In this document: positions 24,635 through 40,583 of the stretch, piece after piece
How the letters are laid out: the number at the start of each line of letters is the position of its first letter
Numbering within the stretch: the stretch's first letter is position 1
Source: Thermotogaceae bacterium
Lineage (GTDB): Bacteria; Thermotogota; Thermotogae; Thermotogales; Thermotogaceae
Assembly: GCA_026993805.1 (NCBI GenBank)
Contig: JALWSA010000056.1
Coordinates: 1 to 40,583, forward strand
Direction of reading: 5' to 3'
DNA length: 40,583 nucleotides
Made by a program: the position numbers and the translations under genes
Notes under the pieces: model-generated
Told to the model about the DNA's origin: nothing
The model's input: only the letters and a program-made list of their open reading frames with translations
Databases searched by the model: none

Positions 24635-24710
24635 GGCGTGCCCGGCGGGATTTGAACCCGCGGCCTCCGGATCCGGAGTCCGGCGCTCTATCCAGCTGAG
24701 CTACGGGCAC
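24634..24710 (-). tRNA. tRNA-Arg (CCG)
   Basis: A cloverleaf of 77 bases including encoded CCA. The acceptor stem GTGCCCG pairs with CGGGCAC. The D arm is GCTC/GAGC, the anticodon stem CCGGA/TCCGG encloses loop CTCCGGA (anticodon CCG, reading CGG), and the T arm is GCGGG TTCGAAT CCCGC, with discriminator G. The first ten bases are also the last ten bases of ruvX. Confidence 0.95.
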
Positions 24711-38163: not shown

Positions 38164-38238
38164 GGTGGGCGCGGCAGGACTTGAACCTGCGACCTCTTCC
38201 TCGTCAAGGAAGCGCTCTCCCAGCTGAGCTACGCGCCC
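38163..38238 (-). tRNA. tRNA-Val (GAC)
   Basis: A cloverleaf of 76 bases with encoded CCA: acceptor GGGCGCG/CGCGCCC, D arm GCTC/GAGC, anticodon stem CTTCC/GGAAG around loop TTGACGA (anticodon GAC, reading GUC/GUU), T arm GCAGG TTCAAGT CCTGC, discriminator A. Confidence 0.95.
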
Positions 38239-38255
38239 ATACGATCGCGATGGTT

Positions 38256-38285
38256 ATTTTACTATCCAATTCCACACGAAGTCAA
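38256..38285 (-). promoter_or_regulatory. Promoter for tRNA-Val
   Basis: On the minus strand TTGACT and TAAAAT are separated by 18 bases, 18 bases ahead of the tRNA 5' end. The -35 box overlaps the stop codon of the DUF5317 gene, so the tRNA can be expressed apart from that operon. Confidence 0.6.
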
Positions 38286-38776
38286 GAAGCCCCTTGAATT
38301 TCTTCTCTCCCCTTTGCCAAGAAAAGCAAAAAGATTCCTATGTAGACCAATATATCACCTATGCTGATTATGAATCTCCTGCCCCAAGGTAGAATAACCG
38401 GTATCCAATCCCCAAAAATCATTCCCCAGTACTGCCAAGAAGAGGACAGGTGGCGACTCCCAATATGAAGTTCCATCGAGCTGGCAAGACTCTGCAAGAC
38501 AGGCATTCTTCCTCCGTTTATGAGCATTATGAAGGCGTTCATAGCCATTCCACACGCCAAAAACTTGAAGCCTGGAATGTGCCTGTTCACTATGAGAAGA
38601 TATATGAGAATAGCGAAAGAAATCAACATCATCCAAAATCTCGGTCCTGGAATTATCTGCAACACGAATGGGACAGGGAACAAAATGAGAAGTTTGTAAT
38701 TTCTATTCAGCACATCCTTTATTCTCCCAGTTATCAAAGAAATGATGAAAGCTATAACGAATACATCAAGTATCAT
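38282..38776 (-). CDS. DUF5317 membrane protein
   Basis: This 164-residue protein has about five membrane helices and the DUF5317 marks: GMAMNAFIMLINGGRMPV in the middle and a final IISIGDILVYIGIFLL helix. The function is unknown. The start overlaps the end of the HD-GYP gene by 11 bases, so the two are translated from one message. Confidence 0.75.
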   Translation of the reverse strand: MILDVFVIAFIISLITGRIKDVLNRNYKLLILFPVPFVLQIIPGPRFWMMLISFAILIYLLIVNRHIPGFKFLACGMAMNAFIMLINGGRMPVLQSLASSMELHIGSRHLSSSWQYWGMIFGDWIPVILPWGRRFIISIGDILVYIGIFLLFLAKGREEIQGAS

Positions 38777-40037
38777 CCCTTTCCTCCTCCTCGAGAACTT
38801 CTAAGAGGGCTTCGAAAACCTTTGGATCAATCTTTCCAAGCATCTTCTTCATCTCTTCTATGGCTTCTTCTTTGGTCATAGCATCCCTGTATGGGCGCTT
38901 GCTCGTCAACGCATTGTAAATATCCGCAACCGCAATTATCCTCGATTCCAACGGAATTTGATCTCCTTTCAAGCCTTCCGGGTAACCGCTTCCATCCAGC
39001 ATCTCATGATGGTACTTCACCCACAAAGCCTCCTTATTTCGGAACCTTCTCAAACTCTTGAGGATTTCATATCCTTTAACCGGGTGCTTTTTGATCTCTT
39101 CAAACTCTTCATCACTCAATTTCCCGGGTTTTTTAAGAACGGTATCCGATATCCCTATCTTACCTATATCATGAAGGAGTGCAGCGACTTTTATTCTCTC
39201 AATATGCGACTCCCGAAGTCCCAGCTTCCTGGCAATACGTTCAGAAAGGTCTGCCACTTTTCTGCTATGTCCATACGTGTATTCGTCCCTCTCCTCGAGG
39301 CTTTTAACCAAAACCATCATATTCTCTATCTTGCTGTCTTCGTAGAGCTTCCTGTAGTAATTGCCCAAAAGGGCCAATATGAGGAGAGAAAAGGCTATAG
39401 GCAAAATCAAAAGGCCAGAAAAACTGTACATTATCAAAATAACCGCTACAGATGGAAAAATGAAAAGTATACTTGGAAAGAGAAATTGGAGATTCTTTTT
39501 GAGCATCGCGAGCAAAGAAACCTTCCTGTCCAAGCTCAACCCAACTGCTATAAAGAGAGCGTTCAAGACCATATACAGCGAAGGTGCAATCACACCATAT
39601 ACCACGTACCAATTTAGATGACGTGCTATGCTCTTTGAAATCAACGCTGTTATCAACGTCGATAAACCAATCTGAGATATGTTGAACACGTATTTGTAGT
39701 ATCTATGAACTCCTTCTTTGCGTTTAAGACGCCTAACGGAAGAAACCGCTATCGAAAGTATGGCAACGAGGGAAGCCTCAAAGGGGTTCAAAAATATCGT
39801 GGCCAGTATGTTTACAAGCATTCCTCCACTTAGTAAAACGTTATAACTTGTTGTATACGATGTTTGAATCTTAACCGTTTCGAACGTTATACCTGCTACA
39901 ACAAAAACGGTGGAGAGAACTATCCCCTCCACCCCATATCTGAACACCCACATTGATTCCAATGATATTAGAAGAATAAACATAATCAAAATATAGATCT
40001 TAGCTACTTTACTTATCTCTTCTTCCAAATCGAGCAT
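38766..40037 (-). CDS. Membrane HD-GYP protein (probable c-di-GMP phosphodiesterase)
   Basis: The protein has 423 residues. The N-terminal half has about seven membrane helices with no known sensor domain. The C-terminal half is an HD-GYP domain: YTYGHSRKVADLSERIARKL, LLHDIGKIGISDTVLKKPG, VKYHHEMLDGSGYPEGLKG and ADIYNALTSKRPYRDAM. The metal ligands and the GYP signature are intact, so hydrolysis of cyclic di-GMP is likely. A GAGGAG site lies just before the ATG. It stands 52 bases behind the second peptide gene; a TATACT-like -10 in that gap could give it a promoter of its own. Confidence 0.92.
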   Translation of the reverse strand: MLDLEEEISKVAKIYILIMFILLISLESMWVFRYGVEGIVLSTVFVVAGITFETVKIQTSYTTSYNVLLSGGMLVNILATIFLNPFEASLVAILSIAVSSVRRLKRKEGVHRYYKYVFNISQIGLSTLITALISKSIARHLNWYVVYGVIAPSLYMVLNALFIAVGLSLDRKVSLLAMLKKNLQFLFPSILFIFPSVAVILIMYSFSGLLILPIAFSLLILALLGNYYRKLYEDSKIENMMVLVKSLEERDEYTYGHSRKVADLSERIARKLGLRESHIERIKVAALLHDIGKIGISDTVLKKPGKLSDEEFEEIKKHPVKGYEILKSLRRFRNKEALWVKYHHEMLDGSGYPEGLKGDQIPLESRIIAVADIYNALTSKRPYRDAMTKEEAIEEMKKMLGKIDPKVFEALLEVLEEEERDDT

Positions 40038-40089: not shown

Positions 40090-40176
40090 TCACCACCACT
40101 CAAGGTTTCCCACCGCGGAAACGACCATGAGTAAAACGCTGCTGACGATTATCGCGAGTCTGAGAAGCTTCTTCAT
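40090..40176 (-). CDS. 28-residue peptide ending in EWW, copy 2
   Basis: A very short gene with ATG 40176 behind a GGGGGGTGAAG site. The product begins MKKLLRLAI, has a hydrophobic core with SSVLLMVV, and ends AVGNLEWW before TGA. It is 16 of 28 residues identical to the peptide encoded just upstream, with the last eight all identical. Silent changes between the copies (GCG/GCT, GTG/GTT, CTT/CTC) support coding. The layout is that of a small secreted or membrane peptide precursor. I do not know the family. Confidence 0.7.
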   Translation of the reverse strand: MKKLLRLAIIVSSVLLMVVSAVGNLEWW

Positions 40177-40227
40177 AACTTCACCCCCCTTTCCCAACAC
40201 ATTTTCAAAGACTCTCAGAAAAGAGGA

Positions 40228-40314
40228 TCACCACCACTCGAGGTTTCCAACAGCGGCAAGAACCGCCAGAAGAGCCCCGCTGAGAACCATGATAACCCTC
40301 CAAAGTTTCCTCAT
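40228..40314 (-). CDS. 28-residue peptide ending in EWW, copy 1
   Basis: ATG 40314 follows AGGGGGG with eight bases between. The product starts MRKLWRVIM, runs through a hydrophobic LSGALLAVLA core and ends AVGNLEWW, then TGA. It has the same length as copy 2, which lies 51 bases downstream. A peptide signal or pheromone precursor, a small membrane peptide or a type I toxin are all conceivable. The conserved, non-hydrophobic tip points to a recognised C-terminal segment. Confidence 0.7.
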   Translation of the reverse strand: MRKLWRVIMVLSGALLAVLAAVGNLEWW

Positions 40315-40359
40315 ACCCTATACCCCCCTTCACTCGATAATTGGTTACACAAAAGCTTG

Positions 40360-40520: not shown

Positions 40521-40541
40521 AAAAAAAGCCCCTCTCGGGGC
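40521..40541 (-). terminator. Terminator of a gene beyond the right edge
   Basis: On the minus strand GCCCC, loop GAGA, GGGGC is followed by seven T. It ends a transcript coming from the right, so the peptide genes start a new transcription unit. No coding region can be supported from 40542 to the edge. Confidence 0.75.
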
Positions 40542-40583
40542 AGAAAGGCTGGGGGTGGTTTTTTTAACTTCATCGGGTCATGT

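Follow-up and report, generated by a model that had tools for sequence, protein, structure and literature searches.

Several described systems resemble the locus reported here. ComRS-type systems consist of a precursor peptide and an adjacent cytoplasmic ComR/Rgg regulator, and the agr system comprises the AgrD precursor, AgrB for its processing and the AgrC receptor kinase. ComS/XIP, SHP-Rgg and the enterococcal inhibitor peptides share with this locus a tiny precursor gene adjoining a presumed receptor gene, and a hydrophobic leader followed by a short C-terminal tail, sometimes with WW. MgrB, SafA, CydX and KdpF are small regulators or subunits that act on a membrane sensor or enzyme whose gene lies near their own, and they resemble the peptides described below in their 25–35 residues and single span. 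In Thermotoga maritima, a density-dependent exopolysaccharide and a candidate peptide have been reviewed (PMC4187201).

The window, that is, the whole stretch of 40,583 nucleotides that was analysed, carries two micropeptide genes on the minus strand, followed on the same strand by a gene for a MASE9-HD-GYP protein and then by a DUF5317 gene, which overlaps the end of the MASE9-HD-GYP gene by 11 bases. The features, with the evidence for each, were as follows.

40228..40314, minus strand: micropeptide gene, first copy, 28 residues plus stop, MRKLWRVIMVLSGALLAVLAAVGNLEWW (homologues; coding signature)
40090..40176, minus strand: micropeptide gene, second copy, 28 residues plus stop, MKKLLRLAIIVSSVLLMVVSAVGNLEWW (homologues; coding signature)
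40231..40254, minus strand: conserved tail AVGNLEWW of the first copy (codons; conservation profile)
40093..40116, minus strand: conserved tail AVGNLEWW of the second copy (codons; conservation profile)
40323..40328, minus strand: GGGGGG ribosome-binding site, 8 nt ahead of the ATG of the first copy (sequence)
40184..40189, minus strand: GGGGGG ribosome-binding site, 7 nt ahead of the ATG of the second copy (sequence)
40527..40550, minus strand: terminator-like hairpin of an upstream transcript (consensus scan, weak)
38766..40037, minus strand: MASE9-HD-GYP membrane protein, 423 residues, predicted c-di-GMP phosphodiesterase (Pfam MASE9 and HD_5)
39351..39908, minus strand: MASE9 domain, residues 44–229, predicted ECF S-component-like bundle (Pfam; AlphaFold2; Foldseek)
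38282..38776, minus strand: DUF5317 membrane protein, 164 residues (Pfam PF17248; adjacency; co-occurrence)

An earlier note, made from the letters of the window, had described two 28-codon frames, each with its own ribosome-binding site, and a shared AVGNLEWW tail encoded by silently different codons. Both descriptions held. The tail is written GCT GTT GGA AAC CTC GAG TGG TGG in the first copy and GCG GTG GGA AAC CTT GAG TGG TGG in the second, with three silent codon differences, no amino acid changes and 8/8 residues identical; the 20-residue leaders were identical at 8/20 positions. The reading in the note of the tail as a constrained part of the peptides was supported; the partner genes that follow are not mentioned there. 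No further occurrence of the AVGNLEWW pattern was found in the 1.69 Mb genome. The terminator-like hairpin is likely to mark the 5′ boundary of the micropeptide unit.

The note had called for a search of relatives, with a lack of conserved copies named as grounds for refutation; a six-frame search of 103 Thermotogota genomes identified homologues of 26–36 residues at the same position across the phylum, which places the micropeptide pair of the window beyond chance. The Thermotogota consensus was MKKLWKV...GSFLALLISAVGNxEWW. By neighbour clustering and inspection, every Thermotogota MASE9-HD-GYP gene with enough upstream sequence was directly preceded by one to three peptides. In the MASE9 genomes of the phylum that gave no search match, the peptide was present on inspection, or the gene lay at a contig edge (G082, G085 and G101). 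Peptide matches outside the MASE9 genomes were spurious, as they fell within longer reading frames or ran antisense to a different gene (G041, with locus L073 inspected). When ten peptides of both phyla in which the family was found (Thermotogota and Bacillota) and one extended form were compared with Pfam and NCBIfam, no model scored above its curated cut-off.

The micropeptides evolve as proteins. Across six Thermotogota groups at genus level, of which two were assigned by locus grouping, the correct frame had a pN/pS of 0.19 and the two shifted frames had values of 0.82 and 2.69; the purifying selection that the note had read from the window was thus borne out, and the excess of non-synonymous change that it had named as grounds for refutation was not seen. 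The tail (0.24) and the leader (0.20) were similarly constrained by this measure, in which pairs of at least 70% identity were used and the values are therefore biased low. Paralogues within one genome had tails that were 8/8 identical and leaders that were 24–47% identical. In the sister genomes G087 and G088, the leaders of orthologous copies were approximately 80% identical, and the same two tail differences were present in both copies. Gene conversion may account for the identity of the tails in G087; recent conversion is unlikely in G088, as the silent sites of its tails differ widely. Most simply, the sequences can be read as tails that answer to a single common partner.

Conservation peaks where the hydrophobic core ends, at A-G-G-A in Bacillota and at V-G in Thermotogota. 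No helical periodicity of conservation was detected in a low-power test, in which 1395/5000 and 3300/5000 permutations reached the observed power. A signal peptidase site carries a small residue at position −1 and an aliphatic or small residue at −3. The residue at the would-be −1 position was A or S in 38/41 Thermotogota and A in 66/80 anchored Bacillota members, and that at −3 was aliphatic in most members. Release of the tail is possible, since most members follow the signal peptidase rule at these positions; we regard it as a real but doubtful prospect that the tail is set free from its precursor. Tryptophan was present among the last six residues in 89/130 members. Diversification of the tail by species or strain was not seen, the tail being kept across phyla, and as it hardly diversifies, a self-sensing or structural role is favoured over strain-specific communication. 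A comparison of the charge of the tail with alignment columns of MASE9 and of DUF5317 for covariation gave clade markers only and was confounded by phylogeny.

The first neighbour of the micropeptide genes matched MASE9 (PF20972) in Pfam with an E-value of 1.6e-27 and 97.2 bits (cut-off 24.3), and HD_5 with an E-value of 1e-41. Its translation contains HDIGKIGI and HHEMLDGSGYP, fitting the HD-GYP motifs HDxGK and HHExxDGxGYP, and the protein is predicted from its sequence to be a c-di-GMP phosphodiesterase. Among the partner proteins, 109/111 matched MASE9 at E ≤ 0.1. The GGDEF family gave 13 matches among the proteins of the source genome, so that c-di-GMP signalling is present there. The second neighbour matched DUF5317 (PF17248) with an E-value of 2.8e-20 and 73.3 bits (cut-off 25); the conserved positions of this family include N64, N80, N87, H109, D123, S138 and D141. 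A MASE9-HD-GYP-DUF5317 fusion was identified at locus L190. No phage copies of DUF5317 were found.

The AlphaFold2 models of the MASE9 domain (pLDDT 90.5) and of DUF5317 (pLDDT 90.8) were confident. Foldseek comparison of the MASE9 model with the PDB gave ECF S-components as all of the best seven matches, with a probability of 0.99–1.00 and E-values of 0.013–0.3; over the S-component matches the E-values were only 0.01–0.4 and the TM-scores 0.4–0.7. In a profile search of the PDB sequences with MASE9, RibU was the best match (E 0.3), S-component Pfam models gave few and weak matches among MASE9 members, and hhalign profile comparison of MASE9 with the sole S-component of the source genome gave no match. 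MASE9 is thus predicted, on the strength of the models, to have the fold of a vitamin-binding ECF S-component, a prediction carried more by structure than by sequence given the weak sequence matches and the failed profile comparison. S-components such as BioY, RibU, FolT and ThiT, which match the predicted structure of the MASE9 member of the window, bind vitamins for transport, whereas MASE9 is fused to c-di-GMP enzymes. The DUF5317 fold had no match in the PDB or among viral models, and no protease or transporter fold was recognisable in it.

The micropeptide family is linked to MASE9-HD-GYP and to DUF5317. Loci from Thermotogota and Bacillota were picked by MASE9 or DUF5317, with the peptide ignored in the choice, and were scored by fixed criteria (a frame of 20–48 residues with a ribosome site, a basic start and a hydrophobic core, at most 450 nt upstream). 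A peptide was present in front of 126/142 membrane HD-GYP or GGDEF genes, compared with 7/584 other genes in the same loci and 1/142 antisense intervals; two of the seven are genuine peptides whose partner gene is truncated or was not recognised. A micropeptide, homologous or analogous, lay directly upstream on the same strand of 114/114 non-duplicate MASE9-HD-GYP genes, which come from related genomes and are not independent samples. The 16 enzyme genes lacking a peptide comprised six MASE9-GAF-GGDEF genes, in DUF5317-less loci (0/6 with a micropeptide), and ten HD-GYP genes with no MASE9 match, mostly the second of tandem pairs and including those of L203 and of the contig-truncated L149. 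Membrane GGDEF genes accompanied by DUF5317 had a micropeptide in 4/4 cases. The micropeptide, MASE9-HD-GYP and DUF5317 very probably form one functional module. As the peptide lies directly in front of this enzyme in at least two phyla, it is a strong candidate for an input dedicated to that enzyme.

Tandem pairs of membrane HD-GYP genes were observed at L154, L155, L157, L159, L160, L173 and L174; in these pairs the MASE9 match and the peptide belong to the first gene only, and the second gene precedes DUF5317. At L095, L097, L098 and L100, another micropeptide, of the ...VVALTSGYKLGG type, is paired with a membrane GGDEF protein and not with an HD-GYP protein.

Within Thermotogota, MASE9 was present in 42/103 genomes and DUF5317 in 42/103, with both in 40; the four genomes with only one of the two come from incomplete assemblies (71–94% complete), and contig breaks were visible in G065 and G062. 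In the f2 genomes, DUF5317 is present and located elsewhere in the genome. Where DUF5317 is unlinked, in Thermotogota and Bacillota, the peptide remains beside MASE9-HD-GYP. In the class of Thermovorax (Bacillota), peptides such as MKINATLLKILLALMALVLAGGANYRLG occupy the same place before MASE9-HD-GYP. A peptide profile search of 399 sampled Bacillota genomes gave matches in 89 genomes at E ≤ 1.1e-5; DUF5317 was present in 118/399 of the genomes and in 88/89 of those bearing a peptide, the one exception lying at a contig end. The Bacillota peptides end in GGANFKM, GGASFRI, GGANFRW and similar sequences.

A plasmid copy in Natranaerobius encodes MNKVVLILVTLLGVVLAGGASFTWGGGG, for which the incomplete gene table of the record has no entry. 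On this plasmid (L225, 2020–3818) the HD-GYP gene and DUF5317 are each split into two frames; the G179 copy of the unit (L205) is intact, indicating frameshift or decay in L225. On a plasmid of Euzebya (Actinomycetota), MSPRTRKALMNLAALVAVILATGAPQKWG is encoded behind an AGGAG and immediately ahead of a gene for a membrane GGDEF-EAL protein and one for a fusion of DUF5317 to EAL; as this is a single locus, Actinomycetota is a tentative third phylum. In Thermus composti, a control genome, the MASE9 and DUF5317 profiles both matched.

When the locus is set against the known systems, the peptide-signal reading of the note stands in part. A signalling role is plausible, given that the micropeptide is tied to a sensor enzyme. 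The proposed kinship with ComS/XIP was dropped: no ComR or Rgg gene is adjacent, the neighbours being MASE9-HD-GYP and DUF5317, and the double-Trp core is not conserved, with WW confined to a few lineages and many members lacking WW or any W. The presumed receptor is a membrane c-di-GMP enzyme and not a cytoplasmic Rgg/PrgX-type regulator, and the tail, unlike those of ComS/XIP-type systems, hardly diversifies and occurs in Thermotogota and many Clostridia-like Bacillota. The agr system likewise has three parts (a small peptide, a multi-span membrane protein and a membrane receptor with a signalling output). It was rejected as a match, as the peptide here has no cyclisable Cys/Ser core, the presumed receptor ends in HD-GYP or GGDEF and not in a kinase, and DUF5317 has no fold match in the PDB.

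In the reading that we judge the best, at even odds, the leader exports or displays the short tail, which is recognised by MASE9 in the adjacent enzyme, and DUF5317 is the third partner. In its favour are the linkage of the peptide to MASE9-HD-GYP, the contrast between GGDEF genes with and without DUF5317, the co-occurrence with DUF5317 at genome level, the DUF5317 fusions, the identical tails of diverged copies, the conservation peak between core and tail, and the S-component matches of the MASE9 model. Against it stand a tail that evolves no faster than the leader and is kept across phyla, unlike typical strain-specific pheromones, and the weak scores of the S-component matches. Both window genes would make copies of one micropeptide acting with the product of the next gene. 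The basic, hydrophobic, signal-peptide-like leader would take the micropeptide into the membrane, and the tail of 7–9 residues (here VGNLEWW) would be presented outside, perhaps cut off after a small residue (ISA|VGN, VLA|GGA). Recognition of the tail by the MASE9 sensor domain of the HD-GYP protein would set c-di-GMP hydrolysis, with DUF5317 taking part obligately as the third partner, either in sensing or in peptide maturation. Display of the tail, its recognition by MASE9, the effect on the enzyme and the role of DUF5317 are inferred; that the tail is the part recognised we hold to be somewhat probable. A wider reading is tentative and rather unlikely: a general and hitherto unseen signalling system, found in two phyla at the least and probably in others, in which a short genome-encoded peptide, exported from a minimal precursor with a signal peptide, is sensed by S-component-like MASE9 with DUF5317 and directly sets c-di-GMP.

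Several features of the locus can be read in other ways. In the strong form of the reading above, the tail could be a released pheromone with which cells of many species signal to one another; MASE9 would read it, c-di-GMP would carry the response, and DUF5317 would process or export it. The small −1 and aliphatic −3 residues of most members, the extra tandem copies in some genomes and the reviewed findings in T. maritima on a candidate peptide and density-dependent exopolysaccharide (PMC4187201) are consistent with this. However, the tail shows no species-specific diversification, the fusions of DUF5317 to HD-GYP and EAL enzymes suggest a sensory partner and not an exporter, and DUF5317 lacks a recognisable protease or transporter fold, so that we consider such a pheromone a possible but somewhat improbable explanation. 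The same lack of diversification suits a permanent single-span subunit that serves the assembly or stability of a MASE9-DUF5317 membrane complex and carries no signal, as do the strict linkage and gene order with constant adjacency to the presumed receptor gene, the conservation over two phyla, the single copy in most genomes and the obligate co-occurrence of the three membrane components. In such a subunit, as in the MgrB-type proteins, conservation would be looked for on a packing face of the span, whereas here the residues of the hydrophobic core vary freely, with no conserved helix face seen in the low-power test, conservation is found instead at the C-terminal junction and in the tail, and tandem copies combine diverged spans with identical tails; a purely structural subunit is accordingly judged fairly unlikely. 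The micropeptides may nevertheless be small membrane-protein regulators, an alternative already named in the note.

The constant position upstream of the HD-GYP gene, a length of 24–28 codons and the frequent Trp before the stop would also suit a cis-acting leader peptide (attenuator or stalling) that controls HD-GYP translation, perhaps sensing tryptophan. Against it, the gap between peptide and gene is variable and reaches approximately 200 nt (negative values reflect mis-set starts), RNA structure between the two is not in excess (folding z averaging −0.18 across 102 loci), no Rfam match lies near the gene, Trp is missing in many members, up to three tandem copies occur, and the co-occurrence with DUF5317 is not predicted by such a leader; this explanation is improbable. 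A type I or other small hydrophobic toxin, also offered by the note, shares with the peptides their size and hydrophobicity only. The obligate partner is a signalling enzyme, retention with that partner is vertical and near-universal, and the Rfam scan gave two tRNAs only, with no antisense RNA family match nearby; a toxin is thus exceedingly unlikely.

The micropeptide provides MASE9 with a candidate ligand or subunit, where ligands are known for few sensor domains of c-di-GMP enzymes, and DUF5317 gains its first functional context. Searches confined to open-licence papers found no literature on MASE9 as a sensor domain or on the function of DUF5317, and nothing relevant on HD-GYP proteins with small peptides. 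The micropeptides apparently form a conserved, undescribed family of approximately 25 residues. As far as was searched, the peptide family and DUF5317 are functionally undescribed and no pairing of a micropeptide gene with a membrane c-di-GMP enzyme in this way has been described. The finding brings to notice a gene family outside the curated model libraries and offers, as a lead, a concrete candidate peptide for the exopolysaccharide response, linked to cell density and based on a peptide, that has been proposed in Thermotoga maritima (PMC4187201).

Additional observations were made on the surroundings of the unit. The window contains tRNA genes at 24637–24710 and 38166–38238, both on the minus strand. 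A conserved CCCCGGC...GCGGAG element lies between the peptide stop and the HD-GYP start at L004, L005, L007, L008, L010–L013 and L015, and its GGAG also serves as the ribosome site of the HD-GYP gene. In Bacillota, the unit lies directly before a secA-like gene (start MLG.LKKIFGD..EREIKKL) at L102, L104, L106, L107, L114 and L120–L124. An HTH repressor-like gene, NiaR-like by eye, follows DUF5317 at L099, L103, L105 and L109–L111, and at L099 and L103 an S-component-like membrane protein is also present after DUF5317.
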